Below are positions 35,174 through 62,153 of a stretch of DNA of 64,000 nt, piece after piece. This DNA is from Haloglomus salinum (GTDB lineage Archaea > Halobacteriota > Halobacteria > Halobacteriales > Haloarculaceae). A program made the translations under genes and the position numbers. Where the stretch lies: assembly GCF_024298825.1 (NCBI RefSeq), contig NZ_CP101153.1, forward strand, positions 3,844,001 to 3,908,000. Direction: 5' to 3'. Each line of letters opens with the position of its first letter. Positions within the stretch are counted from its first letter, which is position 1. The notes below the pieces were generated by a model. The model had not been told where the DNA came from and did no database searches. It was given only the letters and a program-made list of their open reading frames with translations.

Positions 35174-35190
35174 GTATTAACCGTTAATAC
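35174..35190. repeat. Element palindrome 1 (GTATTA-ACCGT-TAATAC)
   Basis: A perfect 17-bp palindrome ending 33 bp before the recombinase ATG, where it would overlap the promoter. First of the family of at least 14 copies in the element. Confidence 0.9.
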
Positions 35191-35223
35191 CATCCGAAAG
35201 TCGTCGCGTGCCGGCACCCGAAC

Positions 35224-36312
35224 ATGACCGACACGATCCAGGACATCCCCATCTGTCCACCACAGACGGCCCAGCTACTCACGGAACGCGAGCGCATCGA
35301 CTACACGGGCCACCGCCGCGACCTCCTCGAATGGATGCTCACCCGGGGCAAGGACCCTGAAATGGCCGAGGGCTACGCACAGACGACCGTCGAGAACCGT
35401 GCCCGCTACCAAGACGGGTTCTATCGGTGGGTCTGGAACGATCGCGGCTACACGACCCAGATCACCGCTGACGACTGCGACCAGTACATCCAGGAACTGC
35501 TGCTGGCGGACCACTCGCGGTCCTACGTGGAGAACATCGCCAAGACGCTGCAGATGCTCACGCGGTGGCACCGAACCGCCGACGAGTGGGAGCCGGACTT
35601 CACCTTCAGCGGCGCTCAGCAGCCGCAACAGCCACGCGACTACCTCACTCGGGAGGAGCGTAGGGCCGTCCGAGAAGCTGCGCTGCACCTCGGCAGCGTC
35701 CCGCACTACAATGCGCTCTCGCCCGAGGAACGTGACGTCTGGAAGGTCCACCTGGCCCGCCGATTCGACAAGCCAGCCGGCCACGTCGGCCCCGACGACT
35801 TCGACCGCGCGAACGGCCACAAACTGCCGTCGCTTGTGTGGACGAGCCTGGACGCGGGTCTCCGCCCGATCGAGGTGGCGCGTGCCCGGACGTCGTGGGT
35901 GGACGTGTCGAATGCCGTCCTCCGGATCCCAGCCGAGGACAGCAGCAAGAATACCGACAACTGGCGGGTGTCCGTCCGGACGGAGACGGCCGAATTCCTG
36001 GCAGCATGGCTCGACGAGCGATCGCTCTACCCGAAGTACGACGACACGGACCAGCTCTGGCTCACCCGGCACAACAACCCGTACGAGAGCCACGCGCTCG
36101 CCTACGTGATGGACAACCTCTGCGAGGAGGCGGAGATCGACCGTGACCTCTCCTGGTATGCGATTCGACACAGCGTCGGCACGTACATGACCCGCGAAGA
36201 GGGGTTAGCCGCGGCACAGGCCCAATTACGCCACCAGAGCCCGCGCACGACGATGAAGTACGACCAGACGCCCGTCGAGGACCGCCGGGATGCCCTCGAC
36301 CGGATGGGCTAA
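35224..36312 (+). CDS. Tyrosine recombinase (integrase)
   Basis: A 362-aa XerC/D-type integrase. The N-terminal SAM-like core-binding domain spans about 25-130 and the catalytic domain about 140-355. Candidate catalytic residues are R214 (LDAGLRPIEVAR), K242, R315 in YAIRHS (a Tyr replaces the usual first His of HxxR), H337 in LRHQSPRTT and nucleophile Y346. It lies 120 bp inside the broken tRNA-Arg, as expected for the enzyme that inserted this element. A copy of the 17-bp palindrome lies in its promoter region. Confidence 0.92.
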   Translation: MTDTIQDIPICPPQTAQLLTERERIDYTGHRRDLLEWMLTRGKDPEMAEGYAQTTVENRARYQDGFYRWVWNDRGYTTQITADDCDQYIQELLLADHSRSYVENIAKTLQMLTRWHRTADEWEPDFTFSGAQQPQQPRDYLTREERRAVREAALHLGSVPHYNALSPEERDVWKVHLARRFDKPAGHVGPDDFDRANGHKLPSLVWTSLDAGLRPIEVARARTSWVDVSNAVLRIPAEDSSKNTDNWRVSVRTETAEFLAAWLDERSLYPKYDDTDQLWLTRHNNPYESHALAYVMDNLCEEAEIDRDLSWYAIRHSVGTYMTREEGLAAAQAQLRHQSPRTTMKYDQTPVEDRRDALDRMG

Positions 36313-36539
36313 TCTCGGTCTACGAACCGGGACGACGTGACGAGATACTGGCCCGGCTCGACTTCTTCGAGGGCGTCGATTCGCTCCGCGGCTTCTGACA
36401 GGAGATTCGCGGGGAGCTCGATATCCTCCGGCCGCCAGATCACCTCATTGACACCGAATTCCTCTTCGGCTTTGCGCCAGATCTCTTGTTGCAGCGGCGG
36501 CAGGTCTTGGTACGCGTACTTCAGGATCGGCTCGTCCAT
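36309..36539 (-). CDS. Small acidic protein of unknown function
   Basis: A 76-aa acidic protein, convergent with the integrase and overlapping its end by 4 bp. Its helices (LPPLQQEIWRKAEEEFG, LSEAAERIDALEEV) could form a small helical bundle. Its start is preceded by only 4 bp and then a perfect 18-bp AT-rich palindrome, so it could be autoregulated. Function not recognised. Confidence 0.6.
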   Translation of the reverse strand: MDEPILKYAYQDLPPLQQEIWRKAEEEFGVNEVIWRPEDIELPANLLSEAAERIDALEEVEPGQYLVTSSRFVDRD

Positions 36540-36543
36540 GCAA

Positions 36544-36561: not shown

Positions 36562-36589
36562 CACATAGAACCTTCCCTCGATTGGGTGG

Positions 36590-37347: not shown

Positions 37348-37411
37348 AGTTCGAGACGCACTCCTATCTCGGGGACGAGTAATACTTAAGCAGATATCTT
37401 AGGCTAAAATC

Positions 37412-37428
37412 GTATTAATCACTAATAC
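37412..37428. repeat. Element palindrome 2 (GTATTA-ATCAC-TAATAC)
   Basis: Invariant arms with a non-standard centre. It lies upstream of the 37347 operon and contains the TAG stop of the mini-ORF at 37551. The left flank read outward is GATTTT, as at three other copies. Confidence 0.9.
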
Positions 37429-37552: not shown

Positions 37553-37569
37553 GTATTAACCGTTAATAC
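37553..37569. repeat. Element palindrome 3 (GTATTA-ACCGT-TAATAC)
   Basis: A perfect copy. The TAA stop of the gene at 37790 lies inside it (37565-37563), and the mini-ORF ATG lies one base beyond its other end. Confidence 0.92.
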
Positions 37570-37790
37570 GTCTGGAGTTTGGATTGGCGGACCATGTAGT
37601 CCGTGTTCGTCTTGTGCAGGTACGTCATCCGTTCCGCCAACCAGTCGAGCTCTTCTCGAATCCGCTCCTCGTCAATGTCGTCGAATTCCCCAGCGACGTA
37701 GTCGAAGAGCGTCTGGTCCGTCTTGGTCTCCGGATACTCCACCACCAGCCGGTCGATTCGAGCTGCCAGGTCGGTGTGATCCAACGCCAT
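37563..37790 (-). CDS. Small acidic protein of unknown function
   Basis: A 75-aa helical acidic protein (LAARIDRLVVEYPETKTDQT, EERIREELDWLAERM). The pattern of helices resembles a small winged-helix or helical regulator, but no family was recognised. It is bracketed by palindromes: one 41 bp upstream of its ATG and one containing its stop. The start at 37790 was chosen because the extension to 37811 reaches toward the upstream palindrome without coding features. Confidence 0.6.
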   Translation of the reverse strand: MALDHTDLAARIDRLVVEYPETKTDQTLFDYVAGEFDDIDEERIREELDWLAERMTYLHKTNTDYMVRQSKLQTY

Positions 37791-37830
37791 ACGAGTGCCG
37801 CCTACCGCCAACCCATCATAGAGATTAATC

Positions 37831-37847
37831 GTATTAGCGGTTAATAC
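37831..37847. repeat. Element palindrome 4 (GTATTA-GCGGT-TAATAC)
   Basis: Lies between divergent genes (37790 leftward and 37902 rightward), 41 and 54 bp from their starts, so it could control both. Confidence 0.9.
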
Positions 37848-40162: not shown

Positions 40163-40356
40163 TCCGGTATCTGGTTGCCGGAGTCGTGGGGTTTGCCAGT
40201 GGAATCTTGTCGATTGCGTTGATGCTTGTGTGGTCCGTCCGGCTCGAAGAGAAGACGGAGGCTTGGAAGGTCTGCCAGAAGTGCGCTCAAGGCTACATGG
40301 TCGTGTACGAAGATCGTTTGGAGTGCAACCAGTGCGGGACGGAGGTGCCGAGATGA
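40159..40356 (+). CDS. Small membrane protein with zinc ribbon
   Basis: A 65-aa protein with one N-terminal membrane helix (YLVAGVVGFASGILSIALML) and a C-terminal zinc ribbon (CQKCAQGY, CNQCGTEV). ATGA overlaps join it to both neighbours, so it is translationally coupled. Probably a small accessory subunit of the same membrane complex. Confidence 0.65.
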   Translation: MIRYLVAGVVGFASGILSIALMLVWSVRLEEKTEAWKVCQKCAQGYMVVYEDRLECNQCGTEVPR

Positions 40357-41183
40357 AGCGGGCACTCGTCGCCGGGCTGGTAGTGCTGACGGTATTAACG
40401 GTTAATACCTCAGCCGTCGCAGCACAGCAGGGCCAGTCTCCGGGGGAAGTCTGCAAGAGCGGCAACATCTCGGACGCGACCCTTGAGAACGTCTGCGACG
40501 CCTACAACGAGCAGCGCCGGATCATCGACGAACAAGAGCAACGAGTCGACCAACTCCGGAACGGGAGCGACCGGGTTGGTGGCGGCCAGTTCAGTGCAAC
40601 GACCAAACGCTATCTCAAGCGAATCGACGCGTGGGACAATCGGACCCGAAGTCCGGCGCTGGTACTCTTCCGCCAGACGGCCCCCGAACCCGGTGGTGAG
40701 ACCGGCGTCTACCAATACGTTGGCCGGGGACGTGGGACGCACGACTTCGACAATGACGGTGTGAAGTCGTGGAAGAAAGTCCCCACCAGACGACTCGGAC
40801 AAGGTGAGTTCGGTCCCGTGGAGATCGACCTGCTGTATGCGCCCGCCGGTTACGACGAGAAACACGTTGTCAACAGCACGGGCCGGCTCTCCGAGATTGC
40901 GCGTGAGCTCTCGTCGCCCGCTGGCTTCGGAGCCTACGTCAACTGGAAGGAAGAACGCGCCGCCAGCGCCCGGAACGCCCAGGCCGGTGTCTTCGGGATA
41001 CTCTTTGTCCTCTTCGGGATCACTGGGACCGGGATTGCCGTGGCCGAGGCCCGAACCCAGCGGATGCGTGACCTGCTCCGGCGCTACCGGAACGAGCGCG
41101 AATACGATCCGGTGAAAGACGGAACGACGAACCCGGTCGTGGCTCTCTACCGGGCCATCAAACGGGGGAAGAAGGGACGATGA
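40353..41183 (+). CDS. Exported membrane-anchored protein, palindrome in signal peptide
   Basis: A 276-aa protein. The signal peptide (MKRALVAGLVVLTVLTVNTS) is followed by an extracellular domain with NxS/T sites and two cysteines, and by a C-terminal membrane helix (GVFGILFVLFGITGTGIAVA, about 213-232). A basic cytoplasmic tail ends in RAIKRGKKGR. Codons 14-19 are formed by a copy of the 17-bp palindrome and read VLTVNT. Overlaps with both neighbours place it in the operon. Function unknown. Confidence 0.65.
   Translation: MKRALVAGLVVLTVLTVNTSAVAAQQGQSPGEVCKSGNISDATLENVCDAYNEQRRIIDEQEQRVDQLRNGSDRVGGGQFSATTKRYLKRIDAWDNRTRSPALVLFRQTAPEPGGETGVYQYVGRGRGTHDFDNDGVKSWKKVPTRRLGQGEFGPVEIDLLYAPAGYDEKHVVNSTGRLSEIARELSSPAGFGAYVNWKEERAASARNAQAGVFGILFVLFGITGTGIAVAEARTQRMRDLLRRYRNEREYDPVKDGTTNPVVALYRAIKRGKKGR
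40392..40408. repeat. Element palindrome 5 (GTATTA-ACGGT-TAATAC), inside a gene
   Basis: Lies within the signal-peptide codons of the 40353 gene, with right flank CCTCA as at several intergenic copies. Retention inside coding sequence argues for selection on the DNA site. Confidence 0.9.
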
Positions 41184-41740
41184 ACGTCCGCTTCCTCCAC
41201 GAGGACCAGTGCCCGGTGTGTACGTCGATCCGGGCGGGTGGCGGCTTCGACCTGTTGCGGGACGTGGTCCGTGACGTTCCAGACCTGCGCTGGGTCGACC
41301 GTGAGATCACCACCGAACGCGAGAATCCCGCGATGCGGTCGGACTCGTTCTCGATGAAGAAGCACCTTCGCGGGAAGACACCCGAAATCGTCCGGCTTAC
41401 TGGGTCGAACGAGACCCCACAACTCGTCTGCGATACGCCGACCCAGCACGAGTCAACACACCCAGCGGACGTCACCTTCTCACGGGTCTCCGTTGAGAAC
41501 CACGAGGAGCGGTTCCGGCAACACCCGGTGGAGACGGCCAACGGGATGCTCCGGTTCGTGATGCGATGCTATCTCAAGTTGGTTCTCGGGGTGACCACGA
41601 AGATGACGGAGGTCTACATGCAAGAAGCCGAGAACCCGGGCGACCCGCGACTCCTCCCTGACCAGTACACGGACGACTTCCAACACGACGAGTGGGTGAC
41701 TGCGTTCAAGAACGCCCGGAGGCGATCTCGGTATGCGTGA
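41180..41740 (+). CDS. Element protein of unknown function with CPVC motif
   Basis: A 186-aa protein that begins VRFLHEDQCPVCTSIR; the CxxC near the N-terminus after a strand is thioredoxin-like, but the rest does not clearly match that fold. One hydrophobic segment (MLRFVMRCYLKLVLGV) may be amphipathic. It overlaps both neighbours. Function unknown. Confidence 0.6.
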   Translation: MNVRFLHEDQCPVCTSIRAGGGFDLLRDVVRDVPDLRWVDREITTERENPAMRSDSFSMKKHLRGKTPEIVRLTGSNETPQLVCDTPTQHESTHPADVTFSRVSVENHEERFRQHPVETANGMLRFVMRCYLKLVLGVTTKMTEVYMQEAENPGDPRLLPDQYTDDFQHDEWVTAFKNARRRSRYA

Positions 41741-42194
41741 CGGCTACGAGCTCCTCGAGAAGCACGGGACTCGCTGGGAGGTCTTCCGTACCGTTCGGGA
41801 CCAGGACAACGTGACGTGTCGGGAGGTGGCGGAGGAAGTCGACTCCCACAAGACCACCGTCAGCAGCCACCTCAACGAGCTCCACGAAAACGACCTCGTC
41901 GACTTCACAAAGGCATCGAACAACACGAAACGGTGGCGACTCTCCGATGAGGCGGCCGCCCACCTCGAGACGCAGCCGGCCACAGATGGCGGCTACACGG
42001 TCCAGGAGTACACCCGACAACAGGCTCCCCTACTCGGGTTGCTCGGGTTGCTCGCCGTGCTGAGTGGGTTGCTCGCCGTCGTCAACGCGGCCCGAGGCCT
42101 CCCGGTCCAGTCGCCGTTGACGTTCTTCTTCATCGCGGTGACCGGCATCGCAGTGACCGGATTAGTTGGCGTTCAGACAATCTACAAATCATGA
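41733..42194 (+). CDS. Winged-helix protein with two membrane helices
   Basis: A 153-aa protein. Residues about 8-75 form an ArsR/MarR-like winged helix (VTCREVAEEVDSHKTTVSSHLNELHENDLV). Two C-terminal membrane helices follow (LLGLLGLLAVLSGLLAVV and FFFIAVTGIAVTGLVGV). This is a membrane-tethered DNA-binding protein. The two M50-like proteases in the element could in principle release it; that link is inferred. It overlaps both neighbours in the operon. Confidence 0.75.
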   Translation: MRDGYELLEKHGTRWEVFRTVRDQDNVTCREVAEEVDSHKTTVSSHLNELHENDLVDFTKASNNTKRWRLSDEAAAHLETQPATDGGYTVQEYTRQQAPLLGLLGLLAVLSGLLAVVNAARGLPVQSPLTFFFIAVTGIAVTGLVGVQTIYKS

Positions 42195-44194: not shown

Positions 44195-44211
44195 GTATTA
44201 ACCGCTAATAC
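44195..44211. repeat. Element palindrome 6 (GTATTA-ACCGC-TAATAC)
   Basis: Begins one base from an ATG (minus, 44193, only a 9-codon frame) and ends 1 bp from the serine recombinase stop codon (44215-44213). Right flank CCTCA. Confidence 0.9.
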
Positions 44212-44212
44212 C

Positions 44213-45094
44213 TCAGACGTGCTCCTCGTAGACTGCCATCCACCCTTCAGACCACTCCGGGTGTGACTCCGTTGACGGCCATGGTTCCAGCTCCGGCGCA
44301 TCACCGGTATCACCTGCGTCCTGGGCCTGGAGGTACTTCGGATAATTGTCGCGAACTGCCCGGAACGCATTGTACGGATTGTCGTCGTCAAACTCCCGGC
44401 CCAACGTCGTTGCACTGTGGCCCTCAGGATCGCGCAACCACTGGTTGAGTGTCTCCACCACGAGGGCGTAGTTCTCCCCCGGAAGGTACGTGGACGCCCG
44501 CTCCACGTCGTTGTGTTCGCGCTTGTCGGTTGTGAGCCCGCGAGGAGGCGTGCCCCGAGGTTCGGCCCGACGGTCCTTCCGTTCGAGTGCGGCATTCGTC
44601 CGTTCGACGGTCTGTCGGGCCTCCATGTCCGCCTGTCCGAAGAGCGCAGCGAGCATATGGTAGTTCCCCATGTCTCGAGCGTTCTCCGTCCGGACAATCC
44701 GAGGAATCTGCTCCAACCCTGGGGTATCTGTGAGACAAAATTCGATCTCTGTCTCCTCGTAGCCCCACCGAAGTCGGAAGTGTTCCGCCATCAACAGCGG
44801 GAGTTGGACGCCGACCATCGTCCGGGTGTAACGTGACGGATTCCGGGCCACGATCCCGTCAATCTCCTCGTCCTCGATCGCCCACGCACACGCCCACACG
44901 AACCGCCACCGTTCGTCGTCCCAGGGCAGGTGCTTCCGGGCGGAGACCTCCTCAGCAATCACACAGTCGACGATCGTGTGGTCGTAGGTGTCCGCCCACT
45001 CGTCGATCGCCTGTTGCTGGTCTTCGATACTTGATTCAACGCTCGCTTCTTTCTTTGACGGTGACTTGCGGATGTAGCCGATGTAGCGTCCCAT
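44213..45094 (-). CDS. Serine recombinase/resolvase
   Basis: A 293-aa recombinase. The N-terminal resolvase domain has GYIRKSPS with candidate nucleophile S11, then SIEDQQQAIDEWA and the block DGIVARNPSRYTRTM. A C-terminal recombinase-type domain with DNA-binding helices follows (about 170-260). It could resolve multimers, invert segments or act on the element palindromes. It is the last gene of a leftward operon that starts at 45515 with three microproteins. Confidence 0.85.
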   Translation of the reverse strand: MGRYIGYIRKSPSKKEASVESSIEDQQQAIDEWADTYDHTIVDCVIAEEVSARKHLPWDDERWRFVWACAWAIEDEEIDGIVARNPSRYTRTMVGVQLPLLMAEHFRLRWGYEETEIEFCLTDTPGLEQIPRIVRTENARDMGNYHMLAALFGQADMEARQTVERTNAALERKDRRAEPRGTPPRGLTTDKREHNDVERASTYLPGENYALVVETLNQWLRDPEGHSATTLGREFDDDNPYNAFRAVRDNYPKYLQAQDAGDTGDAPELEPWPSTESHPEWSEGWMAVYEEHV

Positions 45095-45562: not shown

Positions 45563-45579
45563 GTATTAACCGTTAATAC
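45563..45579. repeat. Element palindrome 7 (GTATTA-ACCGT-TAATAC)
   Basis: A perfect copy with flanks CAG and CTCA. One side is 47 bp from the microprotein start; the other abuts the stop of the 45889 gene (45583-45581). Confidence 0.92.
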
Positions 45580-45580: not shown

Positions 45581-45889
45581 TCAACTCTCAGTCAGCCGGG
45601 GGTGGATCTTGTATACATTCTGACCCGCATTTTCGGATCGTTCTGTCAGGACCCACGTGTTCCTGTAGAACCAGCTGAGCGCGTGAGGGACACGTTTCTG
45701 TTCCAAACTGGAGACCTCAAGCTGTCGGGCCGAGACGTGACGGACTACCTTCCACTCTGTCTCGATCTCTTCGACGATTGCGTCAAGAACCTTCAGAAGT
45801 TCTGACGCGCGTATGTACGGTCGTTCGTGTTCGATCTTCTCGGGGATATCTCGTTCGAGTATCTTCCGCTCGATATCTGCCATCGACAT
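45581..45889 (-). CDS. Small winged-helix-like element protein
   Basis: A 102-aa protein with a predicted winged-helix pattern (YIRASELLKVLDAIVEEIE, VSARQLEVSSLEQ, then strands NTWVLTERS and NVYKIHPRL). It starts one base after the palindrome at 45891 and its stop lies 1 bp before the palindrome at 45563, so it is a one-gene unit bracketed by two copies. A second in-frame ATG is two codons later. A DNA-binding role is plausible but unproven. Confidence 0.6.
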   Translation of the reverse strand: MSMADIERKILERDIPEKIEHERPYIRASELLKVLDAIVEEIETEWKVVRHVSARQLEVSSLEQKRVPHALSWFYRNTWVLTERSENAGQNVYKIHPRLTES

Positions 45890-45890: not shown

Positions 45891-45907
45891 GTATTAACCA
45901 CTAATAC
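45891..45907. repeat. Element palindrome 8 (GTATTA-ACCAC-TAATAC)
   Basis: Contains the TAA stop of the HNH gene (45896-45894) and is one base from the ATG of the next gene (45889). It marks the exact junction of the two genes. Confidence 0.9.
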
Positions 45908-46142: not shown

Positions 46143-46285
46143 TGTCCTCGATACTCCCGGAAGTTCACGCCGTCACCCGATCGAAGTCGATCTTCGCAGT
46201 GCGGACAGACGTCGACACTGTTGTCCGTGGAGAAGACCCGGACGTAGTCCTGGGAGACGTGCGACCCACAATTGTTGCAATTCAT
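46139..46285 (-). CDS. 48-aa zinc-finger microprotein (halovirus type)
   Basis: Contains CNNCGSHVSQDYVRVF and VCPHCEDRLRSG, two CxxC knuckles in a pattern seen in small zinc proteins of haloarchaeal viruses and plasmids. It is coupled to both neighbours by TGATG and ATGA overlaps. Probably a small nucleic-acid- or protein-binding factor. Confidence 0.65.
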   Translation of the reverse strand: MNCNNCGSHVSQDYVRVFSTDNSVDVCPHCEDRLRSGDGVNFREYRGQ

Positions 46286-46530
46286 CAGTAGACCGCCCCC
46301 GTGAGGAGTCGCTCAGTGGCCGCCAAGACAATGCAGTTCACGACCGTGGGAACGGTCCACCCGAGGCCAAGCACGAACTGAGCGACGGCAACAACCACGT
46401 AGCCGACGACCAACAGCCGGAGTCCCCGGACGATCTTCAGGACGTCGAGGAGTTTCTGTGCGTCGTGGGTGCTCGCTTCCGCAATGTCGAGCACCTTGTC
46501 GTATCGCGCTTTCGTATAGAGGTCTGGCAT
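46285..46530 (-). CDS. Small two-helix membrane protein
   Basis: An 81-aa protein. A soluble N-terminal helix (YDKVLDIAEASTHDAQKLLD) is followed by one or two membrane segments (RLLVVGYVVVAVAQFVLGLG and VPTVVNCIVLAATERLLTG). The ATG at 46530 is 54 bp downstream of the palindrome at 46585. Its stop overlaps the next start. Function unknown. Confidence 0.6.
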   Translation of the reverse strand: MPDLYTKARYDKVLDIAEASTHDAQKLLDVLKIVRGLRLLVVGYVVVAVAQFVLGLGWTVPTVVNCIVLAATERLLTGAVY

Positions 46531-46584
46531 GACCTGAGTACCGCAGGCTTCCAATTGATCATAGACATTTACCCGAGATATCAG

Positions 46585-46601
46585 GTATTAACGGTTAATA
46601 C
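46585..46601. repeat. Element palindrome 9 (GTATTA-ACGGT-TAATAC)
   Basis: A perfect copy with flanks CAG and CTCA, identical to those at 45563. It is 54 bp upstream of the 46530 start. Confidence 0.92.
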
Positions 46602-46683: not shown

Positions 46684-46691
46684 GTATTAAC
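46684..46691. repeat. Half palindrome (GTATTAAC only)
   Basis: One arm of the repeat, one base from an ATG (46682, only 5 codons) and 1 bp from the stop of the M50-like gene (46695-46693). The other arm has been lost. With the copy at 46585 it frames about 80 bp without a gene. Confidence 0.7.
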
Positions 46692-49338: not shown

Positions 49339-49730
49339 AGCGTCACCCCCGACACAAGCGCCCCAATCCCGAGGCCGAGTGCCCACACTGGTCGATCGTC
49401 CGAGCGGACAAACTCAGCGCCAACCAGCGCCGCAGCTCCGACAATGTAGAACGCGGCAACCCAATCGTGCGGGACCGGAATCAGGGCCAGGGAAGGTAGC
49501 GTGATTCCGGCCACGTACCCCGGGGTAGCGGCGGGAAGTTCGGAGAGTAGTGCGACCCCGTTCAACCCAGTGACCAGAACGTAGCCGAAGGCCGTCCACG
49601 GGTCGAGTGTCGAGAGGGTATTAACGGTTAATACGATTGCACCAACACACATCACCACCGTCCACACCCGGAACCAGTCAACGTCCCATCGGAGCGGTGC
49701 CGTGATGCGTGGGTCAAGGCTGCTCGTCAT
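49329..49730 (-). CDS. Four-helix membrane protein with internal palindrome
   Basis: A 133-aa protein with about four membrane helices. Helix 1 contains the palindrome-encoded VLTVNT (about residues 33-38). Its ATG overlaps the stop of the gene upstream. No family was recognised. Confidence 0.6.
   Translation of the reverse strand: MTSSLDPRITAPLRWDVDWFRVWTVVMCVGAIVLTVNTLSTLDPWTAFGYVLVTGLNGVALLSELPAATPGYVAGITLPSLALIPVPHDWVAAFYIVGAAALVGAEFVRSDDRPVWALGLGIGALVSGVTLWL
49618..49634. repeat. Element palindrome 10 (GTATTA-ACGGT-TAATAC), inside a gene
   Basis: Lies within codons about 33-38 of the 49730 gene. Right flank GATTG matches the GATT flank at 56817 and 62137. Confidence 0.9.
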
Positions 49731-50922: not shown

Positions 50923-51860
50923 TATTCTATCTCAAGTTCCGGACTGGGTGACGGAGCATCCGATTCCGTGGTCGACGACGATTCCGTGGTTCGCAGGCCG
51001 GTCTCCGGCATCCACTTGATCCGGAGGAAGCCCCACAACACCAACCCGCCAATCGGGCTGGCCGTGGCGCCGAGGAGTCCCGCCAGGAGAATCGCATAGA
51101 AGAGCACGTACCCGATCCGGAAGTCTGGGGCATCGTTGAGGACCGGCGTCGTGTAGGAGACAAACCGGGCCGTCTTGTCGACGGCTGCCACGAACAACGA
51201 CAACGTCCCGACGATCGTGAGGACGATGAAGGCGAAGTTCAGCGGCGGCCCCAGCGGGAAGAGCTCCGTCCCGCTCACCCAGAGACTGATGAAGCCGAGC
51301 GTCCCCACACCCAACACCACGCCGGTCCCGAAGGTGTGGGGCACTCCCAACCAGACGTTGAGTGCCCGGACCACGGCCAGGCCACCCAACACGAGCATCA
51401 GGGCAAATTCGATCCGCGGGTTGCCGAGGAACCCCCAGACCAACTCGTTGAGCGTTGAGGCACCGCCAGCCCCGAAGAAGATGGCCAACGTGGCGTGGAC
51501 GTCTTCGACGAGCCGAGTCGTATCGACGAGCGGTGAGTAGCTCTCCAATAGGACCCACGCGACCAGAACCGTTCCGGCCGCCACCAGTTGCTGGTAGAAT
51601 GGTGAGAAGTCGAAGTCGCGGACCGGAACGTAGGTGTCGACGACCTCATTCGCCATCCGGAGCGTCTGGTAGACCGAGTACCAGCTCCCGAAGAGGATCA
51701 CGCCGAGAATCCCAACGGCAACCGCCCACGAGACGATGTTCGGGTCTCCGACCGGGGCCGTGTCCTGGATCCGGACGGCCGGCTCGAAGAACGCATTCAC
51801 CGCCTTGACGAGTGGGCTGACGGCGTCTCCGAAGAGCGCCTCGATCAGGTAGCGGATCAT
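50922..51860 (-). CDS. Polytopic membrane protein with acidic tail
   Basis: A 312-aa protein with about seven to eight membrane helices and a Ser/Thr/Glu-rich C-terminal tail (TTESSSTTESDAPSPSPELE). Its start is preceded by a strong GGAGG Shine-Dalgarno sequence that forms the centre of the palindrome at 51864. Family not recognised. Confidence 0.6.
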   Translation of the reverse strand: MIRYLIEALFGDAVSPLVKAVNAFFEPAVRIQDTAPVGDPNIVSWAVAVGILGVILFGSWYSVYQTLRMANEVVDTYVPVRDFDFSPFYQQLVAAGTVLVAWVLLESYSPLVDTTRLVEDVHATLAIFFGAGGASTLNELVWGFLGNPRIEFALMLVLGGLAVVRALNVWLGVPHTFGTGVVLGVGTLGFISLWVSGTELFPLGPPLNFAFIVLTIVGTLSLFVAAVDKTARFVSYTTPVLNDAPDFRIGYVLFYAILLAGLLGATASPIGGLVLWGFLRIKWMPETGLRTTESSSTTESDAPSPSPELEIE

Positions 51861-52921
51861 GACGTATTACCTCCTAATACCCGCTCCGTGGTCATGACGA
51901 CAAACGCGAGCATCGCCACACCCGTCACGAACGTCGACACAACCCCGATGAAGTACGCGGTGTTGACGGTGTGGTCGACGAACTGCGGGTCGATTGCAAT
52001 CACGCCCTTCGCTGCGCTCACCAGGAACGGATCGATCGTGATCTCGATCACCGCAGCAACGACCACGACGACCACGGCTGCAAGCGCGTAGAGTGCCGCA
52101 ATGTAGCGGTCCCGAAGGATCCCCATCACAATCGACGTTCCGGCCACACCCATCGCCAGGACACCGGCAAACTCCCAGTACGTGTGCCCCACAGCGAGCA
52201 TCCCGAAGCCGGCCAGCCACCCGAACAACGGCCCGAAGATCGGGGCACCCGTCTGAATCGACAACCGGATATACGTCCCAACGACCGGTCCGAAGAGGAG
52301 CATGATCGCCGCTGCAAAGACGAAGAGCAACGGCAACAACACGCGCTGGTAGAGGGCACCAACCGCCCCGACGACCATCGCCTTCAGGCCGAAGAGCAGG
52401 TTCGTCTCCAGGATTCCGACCAAGAACGACAACACCGTGACGCGGGAGACCAGGCCCTGGGTAGCGTCCGGGTTGTCGACGATGAGGAGGACCAGGTTAA
52501 CTTGTGCCGCGTAGACACGCTCGAGGAACCCGGCATCGGGGACCAGGCCCCAGTACGTAGCGAACGAGATTCCGCCAGCCATCGCCACCGTCGCGAAGAG
52601 CCCGGACAACCGAACGAACCCACCCCACTCCGTAACGTCAGCATCGGCGACAACAGCCGGCCACTCACCGACGTAGAACCGGAGTCCGAGGAGTAACCCA
52701 ACGACAACCGTCATCGTCGAGAACCCGACGAACGGAACGGTGTTGGCGTCGATACCGGCGGCTCGGACGACGACGGAAGCAATGTAGGTGAGAACAGGCA
52801 CTTCGGCGGCGGTCCGCATCCCGACGTACCCGACATCACCGACGTTGAACCCGTCCTGCAGCGCGTTCCGGCTGAGGTTGACGACCACGGCCAGAACCGC
52901 GAAGACGCCGACCCAGATCAT
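51857..52921 (-). CDS. Polytopic membrane protein
   Basis: A 354-aa protein with about nine membrane helices (for example LLPLLFVFAAAIMLLFGPVV and ALYALAAVVVVVVAAVIEI). The last seven codons (VLGGNTS region) are formed by a palindrome copy. ATGA overlaps join both neighbours. Family not recognised. Confidence 0.6.
   Translation of the reverse strand: MIWVGVFAVLAVVVNLSRNALQDGFNVGDVGYVGMRTAAEVPVLTYIASVVVRAAGIDANTVPFVGFSTMTVVVGLLLGLRFYVGEWPAVVADADVTEWGGFVRLSGLFATVAMAGGISFATYWGLVPDAGFLERVYAAQVNLVLLIVDNPDATQGLVSRVTVLSFLVGILETNLLFGLKAMVVGAVGALYQRVLLPLLFVFAAAIMLLFGPVVGTYIRLSIQTGAPIFGPLFGWLAGFGMLAVGHTYWEFAGVLAMGVAGTSIVMGILRDRYIAALYALAAVVVVVVAAVIEITIDPFLVSAAKGVIAIDPQFVDHTVNTAYFIGVVSTFVTGVAMLAFVVMTTERVLGGNTS
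51864..51880. repeat. Element palindrome 11 (GTATTA-CCTCC-TAATAC) carrying an SD
   Basis: The arms are conserved but the centre, read on the minus strand, is GGAGG, 7-8 bases from the next ATG at 51860. It lies in the last codons of the 52921 gene. Confidence 0.88.
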
Positions 52922-55041
52922 CTCCGGGTCACCACCATGATCCCGAGCACCAGGACCCCGACAACCGCCCCGATGATGAGGAGGATCCCGGGCAACCCGG
53001 TGATGTTTGTGAAGGCGCTGAGGATACTATCGTTCCCGGTGCCGCCGGTGGCCAGGAACGACCCCTGTTGCTTGTACGTCCCGTCCGTGTCGTACGTGTA
53101 GAACTCAGTGACGCTCGCCCCGGACTCAAACGTGATCGACCCGTCCGTCGGTTCGATCGGATCGGAGAGGTTCCCGCCCCGTGAGACAACGTAGCGGTGG
53201 TCCGCCGACAGGTCCGAGACCGTCACCGTGACGTTGTCGTCCGGCCGGATATCGAGTACCTCAACACCCGAATTGTTGACCGCACTGTGGTCGTAGGCGG
53301 CAATCTCCGCCGTGGTCCCGGCGTTGACGGCGGCAACGCTCAGATTCTGGAGCCGGTTCTCCGCCGATACACTGCTCCCGTAGTCGAAGACGGTGTTAGA
53401 CTGGGTGCTGAGCGTGAGGCGGGTGTTCGTGTAGATACCCTCGTACGCCGTGTACGACCCGTCGAGTGCCACGCTGGCGACCGTTGTGTTGGTGGTATCG
53501 TCGGCGGTGGAGACCTCCAGCTGGTAGATTCCCTTGAGCGTGTCGGCGTCGTCGATCGTCAGCGTCTGGCCCTGTGCGAGGAACGTGTCCGTGGTCGTGT
53601 TGCTGTCGTCGAGGTGGACCTTCGTGACGTGGACCCGGCCTTCCTGGTGGCCGGTGTACGTGTGGTTGACGACGCCGGACGACGTGGAGACATCGAACGT
53701 CTGAGCACCGTCACTGACCGTTCCGATCTCGCGGACGACCGTCTCACTGTCGTTGAGCGTGCCCGTGTAGGAGACCGTGGTTCCGTCGACCGTCAGCGAC
53801 GGGTCCGTGGTGGTGAGCGTCTGATTGTACTTGACCCGTGCCTGAACTTGGTCGACCGAGGGACCGGACCCGGACGAGTGGTTGAGGATCGTCTTGACGT
53901 AGACGTCTTGGCCGTCTGTAATGTCCTTGAACGTGTTCTCGTCGGCATCTTGCCACTCGGTGTAGCCGGACGGCGAACCCAGTGCAACGTAGTGCTGAAC
54001 GGTGCCGCCAGTTTCCGTCTCCGTCCAGTTCAAGCGGGCTTCTTGCCAGGTCTCAGTGCTCGTGTACTCGGTGACTGCGCGCCCGGTGGAGTTGGTCTTG
54101 GTGACAGTCGTCTGTGTCTCCTTTTCGACGTTGTCACCAACCGTCCAGGTCGCACTACCGAGGGTATCTTTGTATCCTCTCCATCCGATTCCACCGTTCA
54201 CGTTGGAGGCGTCGCCCGGTGCGGTGAGCGTCCCACCAGGGACATCGACCACAATATCCTGCCCGCTCACATCGATGGTGACGTCGTTGAGACCATCCAC
54301 AGCCCCATTCCCACCGGAATCAAGGGTACCTCCTTGAGGTCCTTTGAGTTGCCACTCATTCGACGACTCTACCACATTATACGAACTCAGGTAGTCGGAA
54401 CCACCGAATGAGAATGCGCTGAATGTGGCCTCGGTGGAAGTGCGTCCCATATCGAGATGGACAACATCGCCCTGTTCGACGGTGACATCGTTCCGGTGGA
54501 TTACGGCGTCACTATCCGTTGTGACCTCGAGCTGCCCGTTAGAGACAGAGAAGGATCCAGTATCCCCCGAGTACTCCGCGATGTCTCCGTCAGAGAAGTC
54601 GTCGAGTACCGTGGTGGTCGTGGTTGTTTCCTGGTAGGTGTCCAGGACCAGCTCCCCGTTCTCGACGGTGACGTTCTTCGAATCGTACGACGGAACGGAC
54701 GAGTAGTCCTGGATGAAGTCCTGTGCGCCCTGTTCCTGGGTCTCCTGGCCGATGAACGTCACCTGTGAATCGCGCTGGATCTTGTCGAACGTGACGTCAC
54801 GGTCGCCCTGGACCTCAGACAATGTCTGCTGCGGCCCGAGTTTCTGGCCAGTACCGGTGACGATTGCCGTCCCGTTGCCGTCCGCTGCCAGGTCGAAGTT
54901 CGCCGTGTTCGTGTCCTGCGCCGAGAACTGGTAGTCGACCGAGGTCTCCGTGCTACTCGGACCGGCAACCGCTCCGACCATTCCCACAACGAGCAGTCCA
55001 GCGAAGATCGCGGCCAGGGTATTAGTCGTTAATACCCTCAT
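52918..55041 (-). CDS. Large exported surface protein with C-terminal anchor
   Basis: A 707-aa protein. The N-terminal signal peptide (to about residue 27) is followed by Thr/Ser/Asp-rich beta sequence with many NxS/T sites. The segment of about 145-300 (LDDFSDGDIAEYSGDTGSF to GIGWRGYKD) resembles a concanavalin/LamG-like jelly roll. A C-terminal helix (GILLIIGAVVGVLVLGIMVV) ends in TRR. The palindrome supplies codons 3-8 (VLTTNT). It is a candidate spike or adhesin; no homologue was recognised. Confidence 0.7.
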   Translation of the reverse strand: MRVLTTNTLAAIFAGLLVVGMVGAVAGPSSTETSVDYQFSAQDTNTANFDLAADGNGTAIVTGTGQKLGPQQTLSEVQGDRDVTFDKIQRDSQVTFIGQETQEQGAQDFIQDYSSVPSYDSKNVTVENGELVLDTYQETTTTTTVLDDFSDGDIAEYSGDTGSFSVSNGQLEVTTDSDAVIHRNDVTVEQGDVVHLDMGRTSTEATFSAFSFGGSDYLSSYNVVESSNEWQLKGPQGGTLDSGGNGAVDGLNDVTIDVSGQDIVVDVPGGTLTAPGDASNVNGGIGWRGYKDTLGSATWTVGDNVEKETQTTVTKTNSTGRAVTEYTSTETWQEARLNWTETETGGTVQHYVALGSPSGYTEWQDADENTFKDITDGQDVYVKTILNHSSGSGPSVDQVQARVKYNQTLTTTDPSLTVDGTTVSYTGTLNDSETVVREIGTVSDGAQTFDVSTSSGVVNHTYTGHQEGRVHVTKVHLDDSNTTTDTFLAQGQTLTIDDADTLKGIYQLEVSTADDTTNTTVASVALDGSYTAYEGIYTNTRLTLSTQSNTVFDYGSSVSAENRLQNLSVAAVNAGTTAEIAAYDHSAVNNSGVEVLDIRPDDNVTVTVSDLSADHRYVVSRGGNLSDPIEPTDGSITFESGASVTEFYTYDTDGTYKQQGSFLATGGTGNDSILSAFTNITGLPGILLIIGAVVGVLVLGIMVVTRR
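55019..55035. repeat. Element palindrome 12 (GTATTA-GTCGT-TAATAC), inside a gene
   Basis: Starts 3 bp after the ATG of the 55041 gene and ends 2 bp from the stop of the 56759 gene (55040-55038), read in genome order. It spans the junction of two exported-protein genes. Confidence 0.9.
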
Positions 55042-56759
55042 CGAACCACCCCCACGAGGGCACTCACACCTGTCTTCACCGCGCCGACCGCCTTCCCAGC
55101 GAGGCCGGTCAACGTGGCCACAACCGACCCAGTGCCGAAGTAGGCCGCGGCTCCCAGCAGTCCCAGGGCCGTGATCCCAACCGGGAGGGCCAGTCCCTTC
55201 AACCGCTCAACGAGGCCCTGATCGCCACCAGCGAGGAACCCGCTGTCAGACGTGACGGAGAGCGTGAGCGGTTGCGTGGTCTGGTAGCGGCCACTGTCGG
55301 CACTCGCCGTGATCGATATCGGTTGGCCGTTGTAGTTCGCAGGCGCGTCAACGACGAATTCCCACGTGACACTGTCCCCATTGGCGACCTGGATCGTCTC
55401 CGGTCCGGAGACCACGGTGACGGCGTCCGTATCGTCGATATTGAGCCGGACCTGAATGTCACCCGTCCCGGACCAGCCGAACGTCTGGGTTACTTCGAAC
55501 ACGCGCCCGCTCGCGACCGAGTACGAGTCGCGGCCGGTGATCGCCACCTCGTCGACCTCGACGTTCCAGGAGTGCGTGTCGCGTTGGCCCTCAGCGTCGT
55601 AGACCTCAACCGTCACGGTGCGGTCGCCGGTGTTCTGCCACGTGTGGTCGAAGGAGAACGGCCCGTCGCCGCTGACACTATCGTCCTGTTTCTCGAGTTG
55701 GCCGTCGACGTACCACCGCACTTCTTCGACGTTGTTCGTGACGTCTTCGACGGTGAATGTGTCCGTGGTGTCGACGGAACTGGTGACGTTGTCCGAATCG
55801 GTCTTCAGCCCAGAGACCACGGCACTCGTACTCTGGATCTCCGGCGGGTCCGTGGCGGACTCGTATTCGAACGAGTAACTGTCGAGCGAGTCGCTGGTGT
55901 CACCAGCCGCGCTTCGGGAGAAGTTGAACAGGAACCGGAGGTCTCCGTTGTCCGGGTTCGTGGGGTCGAACGAACACTGCTGGTTGAGGTTGAGCGTCTG
56001 TCCTTCAACGCTGTTGATCGAGCATATTACCTTCCCGTCGAACTGCCGCTGGATTCCCAGGTCGACCTGGCTGTTGGGGCCGTCTGTGGCCATCGTCGTC
56101 GTGAAGTTCCCGGCCTCCGTCATGTTCGAGAGGTCGTAGTAGTTCGTCGTGGCCTGGCCGGAGAGCGCGTCACCGGTTATATCGACGAGAAGTTCGGGAT
56201 TATCGAGAGCATTTTTCGGTCGGAGATAGGCATCGTTGTAGGAACCACCGGCCGAATCCGCGTCGAATCGGACCCTCAGGTCCAGGTTCCCGTCATCCGG
56301 TGTATAGGTGAAACTGTGATCTCCACCATCGTTGTTGCTAGCTGTGAATGTCTTGAACTTCTCCGAACCGTCGAAGAACGCAATCTGCGTATTCGATCCG
56401 AGGTAGACGTTGATATCGAACTGATACGTAGCGCCTTCTGGGTTCTCGTAGTCTCCGAAGTCAACCACTCCGTACCGACCATTCGACTCCTGTCCCTGGA
56501 GCTTCCACTCGTCGAAGTCACCGTTATCAGCATCTTTCGTTTTGGTGACCCAGCTGTGTTGTGGGGTCCCCTCGAGCTCTGATGTCTTGTCGATATTACT
56601 CAGGAGATCAATCGTTCCACTGTCCGTGACGGTCCCTTCGTCGGTGGAGACGTCGTCGAACGTGGGGTCACCGTCGCTAAGTGGCGAAGTGGCGGCGAGT
56701 GCCACCCCAGCGGAGAGCACCACCAGCAGTGCCAGTACGACGGCTGTCGGCTTCTTCAT
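55038..56759 (-). CDS. Large exported protein with Ig/PKD-like repeats and C-terminal helix
   Basis: A 573-aa protein. The signal peptide is MKKPTAVVLALLVVLSAGVALA. The ectodomain is acidic, with Ig/PKD-like stretches such as VRWYVDGQLEKQDD, FSFDHTWQNTGDRTVTVEVYDAEG and a final sandwich. A C-terminal hydrophobic region (LALPVGITALGLLGAAAYFGTGSVVATL) anchors it. The ATG at 56759 begins the signal peptide and is 57 bp downstream of the palindrome at 56817. Function unknown; likely part of a surface complex. Confidence 0.7.
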   Translation of the reverse strand: MKKPTAVVLALLVVLSAGVALAATSPLSDGDPTFDDVSTDEGTVTDSGTIDLLSNIDKTSELEGTPQHSWVTKTKDADNGDFDEWKLQGQESNGRYGVVDFGDYENPEGATYQFDINVYLGSNTQIAFFDGSEKFKTFTASNNDGGDHSFTYTPDDGNLDLRVRFDADSAGGSYNDAYLRPKNALDNPELLVDITGDALSGQATTNYYDLSNMTEAGNFTTTMATDGPNSQVDLGIQRQFDGKVICSINSVEGQTLNLNQQCSFDPTNPDNGDLRFLFNFSRSAAGDTSDSLDSYSFEYESATDPPEIQSTSAVVSGLKTDSDNVTSSVDTTDTFTVEDVTNNVEEVRWYVDGQLEKQDDSVSGDGPFSFDHTWQNTGDRTVTVEVYDAEGQRDTHSWNVEVDEVAITGRDSYSVASGRVFEVTQTFGWSGTGDIQVRLNIDDTDAVTVVSGPETIQVANGDSVTWEFVVDAPANYNGQPISITASADSGRYQTTQPLTLSVTSDSGFLAGGDQGLVERLKGLALPVGITALGLLGAAAYFGTGSVVATLTGLAGKAVGAVKTGVSALVGVVR

Positions 56760-56816
56760 AGTGGCCGCCCCCCAGTCTGAGTGGGCTACACGGCGCAAGG
56801 CCGGGCGGCCGAATTC

Positions 56817-56833
56817 GTATTAGTCGTTAATAC
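56817..56833. repeat. Element palindrome 13 (GTATTA-GTCGT-TAATAC)
   Basis: Lies between exported-protein genes, 57 bp upstream of the 56759 start and 2 bp from the stop of the 58158 gene (56838-56836). Same centre as the copy at 55019; right flank GATTAC. Confidence 0.9.
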
Positions 56834-56835: not shown

Positions 56836-58158
56836 TTACAGCCAGCCCATCGGCGACCCAACGTCCTGGAGCCCACCGTAGGCCACCGCCAGCGCAGCGG
56901 CGATGTAGGCCGGAGTGTCCGAGCCGGCGAAGTCGACGAAGTCGAAGACGCCGCCCATGGAGACGAAGTTGACCCAGAAGTCGCCCATCATCCCACCCGA
57001 ACCGAGCAGGACGTCAACGGCCATCGTCACCGAGGCGATCCCGATAACGGCCGTGAGCGCGGCGACCGGAGCCGGAGCAGGCAGGAGCCCAGCACCGTTC
57101 CGGAGTGTCTTCGGCCGGCCCAGCATGTAGTAGGCCGTCGACCCGATGACACCGACGATCGCGATTATTCCGGCGATCCCGGCGATCGAGAAGAGCTTCT
57201 CACCGCCGAAGACGTTCAGGAAGCCCTCAGTCCCGAAGTCGATCGAGCGGGTGTCCTCGCTCTGGAGGCCACCCTCCGGGTTGGGACTGTCGCCGACCGT
57301 GATCACATTCGTAGCCGAGCCGGTCTCGGGCGTGAACGTGTACTCGAACGTGTACGACTCGTTCATCTCGGACGCGTCGTCAACGGTGTACTCGTACTCC
57401 TGGACGGACCCAGCCTCAGTCATCGTCTGGTAGGTGATGTTCTGGCTGGTGTCCGTGGCGTCCGAGAGGTCGGAGACGTCACCGGTGTCGAACGCGAACG
57501 AGAGGCCGAGCGCCTCGAGCGGAACGTGGCTGTAGTTGCTGTTCCGCGTGATATCGACCGTCAGGTTCGTCTGCTCGCCGACGGTGTCCGGCGTGTACGA
57601 ACCGTCCTCGATCTCACCGTTCGTCGCGTTGTAGTCGACGGAGACAACGTTCCGGAACTGGAGCACGTTGTAATCGTGCTGGACGGAGCTGTCCGGGTCC
57701 TCGATCAGGAGGTCAGCATCCGGATCAGCCGCGTCCGCTCCGGCGTAGATGCCGTCAGCACTCTCGTCCGTGGAGACGTTGAACGTGACGTCCAGCGAGT
57801 CGAGGGTCGCGTCCGTGGAGTCGGACGTGGAGTCCTCAACGAGAACGTCCCCGTCATCCTGGACGGAGGCGGACACGTCCGTCCCACTCGCCGAGGCGGA
57901 CGCTGCGGACATGTTCCCGGCCACGTTGAACTCGATCGACCCGTCACTGGTAATCGTCCATGTCTCACTCGAGAATTGGACGGTTACGTTGTCGAGTTCC
58001 GGGTTCTCCGCGTTGATGTACGTCGTATTTGTTGCATCCACAGTGTCGACTGCGGAGTTGTTGAATTCGTTGTTCTCGGTGGCCACCGCCGGGGCCACGG
58101 CTCCGGAGAGAGCCACGGCGAAGACGGCGAACACCGCGAGTAGTTGTTTAAGCTGCAT
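56836..58158 (-). CDS. Exported protein with multi-helix membrane C-terminus
   Basis: A 440-aa protein. The signal peptide (MQLKQLLAVFAVFAVALSGAVAPAVA) precedes an Asn/Asp/Ser-rich beta ectodomain (to about 290). Three or four membrane helices follow (IAGIAGIIAIVGVIGSTAYYM, VAALTAVIGIASVTMAVDVLL, YIAAALAVAYGGLQ). It is the first gene of the leftward surface/membrane block. The ATG at 58158 was chosen because it starts the signal peptide directly. Confidence 0.7.
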   Translation of the reverse strand: MQLKQLLAVFAVFAVALSGAVAPAVATENNEFNNSAVDTVDATNTTYINAENPELDNVTVQFSSETWTITSDGSIEFNVAGNMSAASASASGTDVSASVQDDGDVLVEDSTSDSTDATLDSLDVTFNVSTDESADGIYAGADAADPDADLLIEDPDSSVQHDYNVLQFRNVVSVDYNATNGEIEDGSYTPDTVGEQTNLTVDITRNSNYSHVPLEALGLSFAFDTGDVSDLSDATDTSQNITYQTMTEAGSVQEYEYTVDDASEMNESYTFEYTFTPETGSATNVITVGDSPNPEGGLQSEDTRSIDFGTEGFLNVFGGEKLFSIAGIAGIIAIVGVIGSTAYYMLGRPKTLRNGAGLLPAPAPVAALTAVIGIASVTMAVDVLLGSGGMMGDFWVNFVSMGGVFDFVDFAGSDTPAYIAAALAVAYGGLQDVGSPMGWL

Positions 58159-58266
58159 TCCTCTACCGAACAATACGTAGAGCGGCTCATGAAGCGGCCA
58201 TAACGTAGCGAGTAATCAGGTATAGTACCGCCAATTGCTCGGGAGGCCTAACGAAGTCGGAACAGG

Positions 58267-59981: not shown

Positions 59982-62040
59982 ATTCTAGTCCAAACCGGTC
60001 CGCGATCTCGCTCTCGATGTGATTCCGGATATCCTCGCGGTTCTCCAGCTTCTCCTGGATCACCTCCGCTGCTGGTTCACCGTCGATGGTGATCTCCTCG
60101 TCCAGGAGGTCGTGCAGGTCGTCCACGTTCCGCCGGTGAATCACCTGCTCGGAGCCCCACTCCGTCCCCAGGCGAGTCTGAATCCGATCGCGTCGATCAT
60201 CGTCGTCCGTGATTCGGTTGGTTGCGAGCCACTCTGGCCGGGCAGTATTCAGTAGCACCTCGAAGCCCCCGCCCTCTTTGTCGATGGCGACGGCCTTCCA
60301 GTCCTCGCCGTCCTCGTTGGCGAACGTCGTCGACTGGACGATCGAGACCTGGCCCTCCTGTTCGCCTTCACCGCCCTCGCCACCGTCGTCTGGTCCATCG
60401 CCCCCATCGCCGCCATCGCCGCCATCGCCGGTCCGTTCACTCCGTTCGACGTCGCCCACTGTGAAGTAGATCTTCGAGGAGTCGAGCTTCTCGTTCTCCT
60501 CGTCCGTGTCGAGATCGAGGACCTCGGGGGCGGCCCTAATGCTGGCGCTAAACGAGTAGATCCCCTCGTTCTTCGGTTCGAACTCCACGATATCGAAGGT
60601 TTCGTGACTATTCTCAGAGACATTGACGACCCGTGAGCCGACGTCCCGGTTCATCGACAGGTCGGTGGAACTTACGTTAATGTCGAACAGTTCGTAGCGC
60701 TGGCTCTCAGGGTCTACCGGATTCTCGATCTGGATCTTTAGCGAGATTCGGTCGCCTACGTCGTATTTCCGCTTCCCGGCCTGGCACTTTACCAACGAGT
60801 CAGACGGGTCTCTGTCATCGCCTGTCGTCCCGTCTTCGTCCGTCTCGGTGGTGATCTCACCTTGGGTCTGGTACTCGTCGAAGTCCTCGTAGTCGGCGAG
60901 GAGTTCGTTGATGTTCCGGGTGATATCCGAGGCCAGCTGCTTCCGCTCTTCGGTGGTCCGCCCCTTCTTGAAGTGCTCGTCGTGGAGCTGCAGGAGCGGG
61001 TCCTTGATCCCCGTCTTGGACTCGTGCCCCCGGAACGAGGTGTGGGCGTTGTTCTCCAGGTCGGGGCAGAGGTCGGTGGCGTCACACCAGCCGATCATCT
61101 GGGGCGGGTTGCGAAGCGAGGGAATCCCAGTGGGCTTGTACGCCTTGATCGTCATGAAGGGCTCGTCGAGGTACTGGTTCCCCTTCAGCATCGCCACCCC
61201 CTCCCAGGGCGGATCCTCGTCCATGACGTCCGTCCGGATCACGGAGAGGTCGCGGACTCGGTAGGTACCTCCCTCTGCGCTGAACTCCGGGAGCTCCTTG
61301 CGGAACATGAGCTGCCCCTCCTCGAGATACTGCTTGAGGTCCGGGGCATCCGGGTAGTGCTCCTCGCCGTCGATGACGTAGCGGACCGTGACGTCGTCCC
61401 TGCTCAGCAGGAAGGTGAAGTTCTGGACGAACATCTCCTGGACGCGGTCCCAGTTCCCGAGGAACTCCAGGTCGTGTTCGAGGACATCGGCGACGTAGAT
61501 GTGGGTTCCCTGGACATCTGGGTCTAGTCGAGGGTCGCTCGGCGTATTAGGCTCGCTGTACTTGCCGTCGTTCGAGACGGTCATCGCATTGTGCTCGCCG
61601 TCCTGCCGTGTCTCCACGTAGGTCAGGCCCTCACCACACATGGCGATAACGTAGAACCCGCGCCCGTACGCACCTGCGCCACCACCGGCCTCCTTGTCCT
61701 CGTCCGGGGTGTCGATACCGACGAGGTTGTTGCGGAGGACCTCCTCGGTCATCCCCCCAGCGTTGTCCGAGTAGGTGAAGGTCCCTTCGTTGGTGTCCAC
61801 CACGAACTCCAGCTCGAGGTGGCAGTCATCAGGGAGAACGCCCCGATCCATACTCCGGCCCCAGGCATCCACGCCGTTCTGGACCGCCTCACGGACCGTA
61901 CCCTTGGCCGGTTCGTCGTAGTCCTGCCGGATCCGCTGGAGGGTATTCTTCCGCTTGATCGGTACGTCCTGGTTAATGTCGGCCTTCGAAGCGAAGGCGG
62001 GCTGGCTGTCGTCCTCCGTCTCTGTTTCGTCTGTGCTCAT
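59971..62040 (-). CDS. GHKL ATPase (MORC/MutL/Hsp90 superfamily)
   Basis: A 689-aa protein with an N-terminal Bergerat-fold ATPase. The N box is E51, N55, D58 in REAVQNGVDAW. The G1 box is DNAGGM (92-97) and the G2-type loop is GGGAGAYGRGFY (119-130). A long middle domain and a Gly/Asp-rich linker (about 540-570, GDGGDGGDGGDG) lead to a C-terminal helical domain. GHKL ATPases of this type occur in restriction-modification islands, the presumed source of eukaryotic MORC. The DNA methyltransferase 430 bp upstream supports such a role. Confidence 0.8.
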   Translation of the reverse strand: MSTDETETEDDSQPAFASKADINQDVPIKRKNTLQRIRQDYDEPAKGTVREAVQNGVDAWGRSMDRGVLPDDCHLELEFVVDTNEGTFTYSDNAGGMTEEVLRNNLVGIDTPDEDKEAGGGAGAYGRGFYVIAMCGEGLTYVETRQDGEHNAMTVSNDGKYSEPNTPSDPRLDPDVQGTHIYVADVLEHDLEFLGNWDRVQEMFVQNFTFLLSRDDVTVRYVIDGEEHYPDAPDLKQYLEEGQLMFRKELPEFSAEGGTYRVRDLSVIRTDVMDEDPPWEGVAMLKGNQYLDEPFMTIKAYKPTGIPSLRNPPQMIGWCDATDLCPDLENNAHTSFRGHESKTGIKDPLLQLHDEHFKKGRTTEERKQLASDITRNINELLADYEDFDEYQTQGEITTETDEDGTTGDDRDPSDSLVKCQAGKRKYDVGDRISLKIQIENPVDPESQRYELFDINVSSTDLSMNRDVGSRVVNVSENSHETFDIVEFEPKNEGIYSFSASIRAAPEVLDLDTDEENEKLDSSKIYFTVGDVERSERTGDGGDGGDGGDGPDDGGEGGEGEQEGQVSIVQSTTFANEDGEDWKAVAIDKEGGGFEVLLNTARPEWLATNRITDDDDRRDRIQTRLGTEWGSEQVIHRRNVDDLHDLLDEEITIDGEPAAEVIQEKLENREDIRNHIESEIADRFGLEYGS

Positions 62041-62136
62041 GGGTGCATCCCGTGGCCTCGTATGTCTTCGTAGGCCACATACGCAGTGAGACGGATAGCA
62101 CGGATAAATCTGTCGTGAGAAGTGTTGGCACGAAAC

Positions 62137-62153
62137 GTATTAACCGCTAATAC
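62137..62153. repeat. Element palindrome 14 (GTATTA-ACCGC-TAATAC)
   Basis: Lies in the 136-bp gap between the winged-helix gene and the GHKL gene, 96 bp upstream of the GHKL ATG. Right flank GATTTAC. Confidence 0.9.

Follow-up and report, generated by a model that had tools for sequence, protein, structure and literature searches.

Plasmid RK2 has about 12 KorB operators, scattered strict palindromes whose central base is S (C or G). They belong to one protein, which takes part both in silencing at a distance and in partition (PMC11790492, PMC5577506). In Cluster A phages, many repressor sites lie on one temperate element, at promoters and elsewhere, and their specificity differs among relatives; these stoperators are 13–14 bp long, lack dyad symmetry, are bound by a monomer and are oriented with transcription (PMC6550527). 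The small dimeric regulator F55 of Sulfolobus virus SSV1 silences the integrated archaeal virus at several promoters (PMC5569661). How integrated elements of haloarchaea are silenced has been established for few viruses, and the archaeal viral regulators that a review describes act at a handful of promoter sites. Here, we analyzed a 64,000-nucleotide stretch of the Haloglomus salinum genome (contig NZ_CP101153.1, positions 3,844,001 to 3,908,000; hereafter the window), which contains most of an integrated element carrying 15 copies of a 17-bp palindrome, GTATTA-N5-TAATAC.

As with the stoperators of L5 and other Cluster A phages, many copies of one site are spread over an integrated element with none elsewhere in the host genome, and the site sequence differs in a relative (the element of genome G480, with TAGTTACG-N4-CGTAACTA). 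Unlike stoperators, the site is an archaeal palindrome of 17–19 bp without orientation. KorB is a CTP clamp of the ParB family, whereas no ParB-type match was found among the gene products scanned from the window's element. The sites of F55 are tandem ATAGATAG repeats found at four promoters, whereas the 15 palindromes include copies inside genes. A distributed operator-like array is a known kind in principle; the setting and the strictness are new.

Copies and sequence of the palindrome

An exact search of the window found 14 copies of GTATTA-N5-TAATAC, with 0 expected from 100 dinucleotide shuffles, and each lay exactly where the original prediction, made from the letters of the window, had placed it. 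The whole genome (4.19 Mb, single contig) contained 15 copies, all at 3,879,174–3,908,419 (29 kb); the fifteenth is at window coordinate 64403, 403 bp beyond the window end. A perfect 90-bp direct repeat was present at 35009–35098 and at combined coordinate 67728–67817 (window joined to L016). It includes the 5' part of tRNA-Arg(TCG), and the intact tRNA-Arg stands at the right end (L016:3765-3839). Based on these repeats at both ends, the element extends from 35009 to 67817, about 32.8 kb. All 15 palindromes fall within this tRNA-Arg-integrated element, so that the predicted restriction to the element was borne out across the genome (15/15 inside, 0 elsewhere).

No copies with one or two mismatches were present in the window, and among arm spacers of 0–24 bp a spacer of 5 was the sole one occurring. 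Lone half sites were found at 46684 and 61544 (GTATTA) and at 37380 and 43849 (TAATAC). The one at 46684 (GTATTAAC, then CTCA), which had been noticed from the start as a half copy, looks like the remnant of a copy from which about 9 bp were deleted. A literature search with three of the site sequences gave no match.

Alignment of 26 archaeal copies from five elements gave the consensus S-GTATTA-RYSRY-TAATAC-S. The 12 arm bases never varied, which extends the invariance claimed for the window, and the outer flanking base was C or G at 51 of 52 positions. The centre had been described as variable but is not freely so: RYSRY fits 14 of the 15 genomic copies, the exception being CCTCC at 51864. 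Six distinct centres occur among these 15 when each is pooled with its reverse complement, and ACCGT/ACGGT is common to seven copies, in both orientations. The central C or G shows no consistent direction across the leftward operon, and the sites are palindromic, unlike the oriented, asymmetric stoperators. The flank classes proposed earlier exist as motifs (right CTCA in four copies and CTCG in a fifth; left CATG in three; right GAT or GATT in four) but are weak as classes.

Placement of the sites and a candidate regulator

The sites in the window are as follows (palindromes unless stated otherwise, no strand assigned):

35174..35190, centre ACCGT, 34 bp 5' of the integrase start
37412..37428, centre ATCAC, upstream of the leftward gene run that starts at 37347
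37553..37569, centre ACCGT, overlapping with the stop codon of gene 37563-37811(-)
37831..37847, centre GCGGT, in the space between the divergent genes 37811(-) and 37902(+)
40392..40408, centre ACGGT, within the signal-peptide codons of gene 40353-41183(+), translated VLTVNT
44195..44211, centre ACCGC, adjoins the resolvase stop
45563..45579, centre ACCGT, adjoins the stop of gene 45581-45889(-)
45891..45907, centre ACCAC, 1 bp ahead of the ATG of gene 45581-45889(-)
46585..46601, centre ACGGT, 31 bp ahead of gene 46285-46554(-)
46684..46691, apparent remnant half site GTATTAAC
49618..49634, centre ACGGT, within the codons for a hydrophobic segment of gene 49329-49730(-), translated VLTVNT
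51864..51880, centre CCTCC, Shine-Dalgarno position of gene 50922-51860(-)
55019..55035, centre GTCGT, codons 3-8 of gene 52918-55041(-), MRVLTTNT
56817..56833, centre GTCGT, within the 37 bp that separate genes 56836-58173(-) and 55038-56798(-)
62137..62153, centre ACCGC, between gene 62177-62500(-) and the start of the long leftward operon at 62040

Sites lay a median of 28 bp from the closest start or stop codon, in comparison with about 220 bp for random element positions (0 of 20,000 trials came as low), and a median of 46 bp from the closest start codon alone (p 5e-5). Some starts and stops were curated after the sites had been seen, and the gene-boundary p-value is therefore optimistic. 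On the minus strand the centre at 51864 reads GGAGG, directly 5' of the start of gene 50922-51860, and hence doubles as a Shine-Dalgarno sequence. The motif has one stop-free reading frame, GTA TTA NNN NNT AAT AC, which all four in-gene copies use; TTA makes up 11 of 8,902 codons in the element, and four of those 11 belong to these copies. Two small genes (37563-37811 and 45581-45889) have palindromes at both ends.

The unvarying arms, their dyad symmetry, the confinement of the copies to the element and their positions at gene boundaries together support a distributed operator for a dimeric protein, which was one form of the dimeric-site reading in the original prediction. We put the probability at roughly 60% that the palindromes are bound by a dimeric regulator that the element itself encodes and that acts element-wide. 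The best reading is that the array works like stoperators or KorB operators; we infer binding by a dimeric protein, transcriptional silencing or immunity as the effect, and a specificity that diverges between elements. The regulator would keep the integrated genes silent or set their levels. From sites just upstream of start codons it would act at promoters, and from sites inside operons it may block transcription or build a larger complex. If this is true, whole-element control and immunity-type specificity become testable in archaea, with the sites known and the candidate binders few.

Several points besides the optimistic p-value weigh against such a regulator. Operators usually vary in affinity, and the strictness seen here, with zero degenerate copies in the window, is unusual. 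Several copies lie mid-operon or at gene ends. A related plasmid region (L303, see below) has a weak four-copy repeat like ATACG-N4-CGTAT. The binders are candidates only: the models of both palindrome-bracketed small proteins are of low confidence and were too weak for a fold search, and the searches turned up no one family of regulators common to all five elements with the motif. Three small proteins, one each from G321, G169 and G209, were combined into a profile whose best G000 match was 37563-37811, with a non-significant E of 0.31, and viral-contig searches with two element proteins gave no relatives.

Other genes of the element comprise a tyrosine integrase, a serine recombinase, winged-helix proteins, a methyltransferase, a GHKL-type ATPase and a long leftward operon, whose products are mostly without family matches, several having signal-peptide-like or hydrophobic starts. 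The features concerned are:

35009..35098, no strand, attL, 90-bp direct repeat, 5' part of tRNA-Arg(TCG)
35224..36312, plus strand, tyrosine integrase (Pfam Phage_integrase 2.7e-14)
37563..37811, minus strand, small protein, 75 aa from internal ATG 37790, palindromes on both sides, candidate regulator
41733..42194, plus strand, winged-HTH regulator with hydrophobic C-terminal part (HTH_20 3.5e-06)
44213..45094, minus strand, serine recombinase, resolvase N-terminal domain (Pfam Resolvase 2.5e-08)
45581..45889, minus strand, 102-aa protein, palindromes on both sides, low-confidence H-H-E-H-H-E-E model (AlphaFold pLDDT 47)
62177..62500, minus strand, PadR-like winged-helix protein, candidate regulator (Pfam PadR 5.3e-06, slightly under cut-off)
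62470..63771, minus strand, DNA methyltransferase, longer frame to 64314 (phrog_18146 2.5e-17; PADLOC MTase_II 1.1e-14)

The palindrome in other elements

In a class-wide search of 391 genomes, clustered copies were found in G321 (5), G103 (2), G090 (2) and G169 (2). Where else the motif matched, a genome had one or two copies, mostly with other centres. The four clusters lie on integrated elements of Natrialbaceae that otherwise differ from the window's element. Among 125 Natrialbaceae genomes the extended motif occurred in exactly these four, and it was absent from 145 other genomes of the host's family. Bounding direct repeats of 98 bp were identified for G321 and of 84 bp for G169; the candidate for G103 is weaker, at 19 bp. 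In G103 and G169 a copy follows the same gene, and its arms and outer C/G are intact in diverged flanking DNA.

These comparisons bear on whether the palindrome is a dispersed repeat, spread by duplication and without function at each place. A few copies do have common flanks, such as TGAG before GTATTA, and the one half copy resembles a deletion remnant. However, similarity mostly ends at the 19-bp motif, the centres differ where the arms do not, two elements keep the arms despite diverged flanks, and the same motif occurs in otherwise different elements. The dispersed-repeat explanation is already disfavoured and has, in our judgement, the slightest chance of those considered.

A second repeat, GGGGTAGGGG, was observed in the Natrialbaceae elements (G090 at 7708, 13209 and 17703; G321 at 17561 and 26137; G103 at 13221; G169 at 7935), sometimes close to palindromes, but inconsistently. 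A single copy of the palindrome in G107, adjoining a methyltransferase, was set aside as chance because its flanks are T rather than S and about 0.7 such centres would be expected (an estimate over genomes with stray copies). In motif scans of IMG/VR, the matches listed were mostly single copies in contigs of <50% G+C. Four tailed-phage contigs (G411-G414; L169-L176) carry a palindrome TATTAAC-S-GTTAATA, a few copies having a T, in 15, 10, 4 and 10 copies. This array (TATTAACSGTTAATA, outer base free) has its core in common with the archaeal palindrome and many copies lie at gene boundaries; an example gene of these contigs is a terminase (L170:10961-12673). No gene in common with the window's element was found by blastp at E 0.01, and the array was set aside as related but different.

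The element of G480 (G480:C1:527786-565790) shares several genes with the window's element, including an integrase with 49% identity, and has a protein like the winged-HTH regulator 41733-42194 at the equivalent place (29650-30180). It lacks GTATTA-N5-TAATAC and has its own strict 20-bp palindrome, TAGTTACG-N4-CGTAACTA, with 5 copies in the genome, all within 38 kb, and 0 in the family's 145 other genomes. All copies have GGGG/CCCC as the centre (TAGTTACG-GGGG-CGTAACTA). The four copies read sit 37–47 bp 5' of start codons, two of them directly behind a TATA-like GATTATAAATC. A Natrinema plasmid region (L303) has six genes in common with the window's element, and the palindrome was absent from the 40 kb read. 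The original prediction had held that absence from related elements would speak against the family; literally, such absence was found in both, but G480 carries a different element-restricted palindrome, which makes absence too strict a criterion. Site specificity may diverge between elements as it does in phage immunity groups, with G480 as a strong and L303 as a weak example. The array thus spans the element with near-perfect sites; a relative has a different array in its place, and another element family has the same motif. TFIIB-like proteins were also observed on these elements, at L303:20695-21246 (+), with a Pfam TFIIB repeat, and at G480 combined 34300-35262 (-), assigned by sequence only.

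Divergent arrays in related elements would also fit incompatibility groups, and the palindromes could form a centromere-like or DNA-organizing site set, comparable to parS or KorB operators, for segregation or compaction of the excised element. Strict element-wide palindromes with a central S resemble the KorB/ParB type. Apart from these likenesses, nothing came up in favour of the partition array that had originally been offered: none of the gene products scanned matched a ParA- or ParB-type family (Pfam, by sequence only), three motif-bearing elements hold just two copies each, and four copies in G480 stand right before start codons, like regulatory sites. We consider this role unlikely.

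Both arrays also bear on recombination, in which the serine or tyrosine recombinase of the element would use the palindromes for crossover and so invert or shuffle genes. In the window's element, as in G321 and G480, palindromes do adjoin serine recombinase genes, and the seven ACCGT/ACGGT centres in both orientations and the fixed centre in G480 would suit such sites. Crossover by serine recombinases spans 2 bp, to which an odd-length dyad is unsuited. Moreover, the centres differ among copies of the window's element, which lack the identical overlap region, and exchange would break genes at the signal-peptide codons and at the Shine-Dalgarno copy. No alternative arrangement of the DNA between sites was observed, and no second strain carrying the element was found for comparison. 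This explanation, also listed in the original prediction, gained nothing else in its favour and appears very improbable. A binding site array for a regulator is the preferred reading also after these comparisons.

A thymidylate-synthase-like gene and a possible link to DNA modification

Near the right end of the window's element, a thymidylate-synthase-like protein is encoded at L016:2867-3565(-), with a match under the Pfam cut-off. Just downstream, and overlapping it, is an HMUDK_hel gene (L016:2002-2877(-), PF18723, E 3e-57). Such genes are found in thymine hypermodification systems, which pair a 5-hmdU DNA kinase bearing a P-loop kinase domain with a hydroxymethylase of the thymidylate-synthase type, but the HMUDK_hel product here had no kinase domain match. 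By tblastn and blastp, the thymidylate-synthase-like protein was the sole clear non-recombinase homologue that the window's element has in common with the four elements of Natrialbaceae, and a DNA-modification link for that reason stays among the readings: the protein, alone or with its HMUDK_hel partner, would recognize or modify bases at the palindrome and so mark element DNA.

In support, the extended motif occurred among the 125 Natrialbaceae genomes in exactly the four with an intact thymidylate-synthase-like gene, the gene has the PF18723 partner in the window's element, and elsewhere it lies near genes for a uracil-DNA glycosylase and for a nuclease-like protein with an SRA domain, among others. 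However, the four Natrialbaceae elements look like one lineage, which reduces the co-occurrence to some two independent events. In L303 the gene pair recurs, HMUDK_hel again just downstream, without the palindrome in the 40 kb read, and no motif was found in the stretches read around homologues in G075, G064 and Sulfitobacter. No thymidylate-synthase-like match was obtained in the G480 stretch, and a viral-contig search with the alignment of this protein gave no relatives. Thymidylate synthase and 5-hmdU kinase domains are both found in validated anti-phage systems (PMC13092281), and the gene may accordingly be defence cargo. Recognition or modification at the palindrome is improbable. We hold it more doubtful still that the protein, with HMUDK_hel where present, modifies or marks GTATTA-RYSRY-TAATAC as a site-specific self-label of haloarchaeal mobile elements, in place of plain operators.

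Beside the thymidylate-synthase-like gene of G169, L035:13141-14082 (-) encodes a SAD/SRA-domain protein with a nuclease-like C-terminal part, both matches being under the Pfam cut-off.

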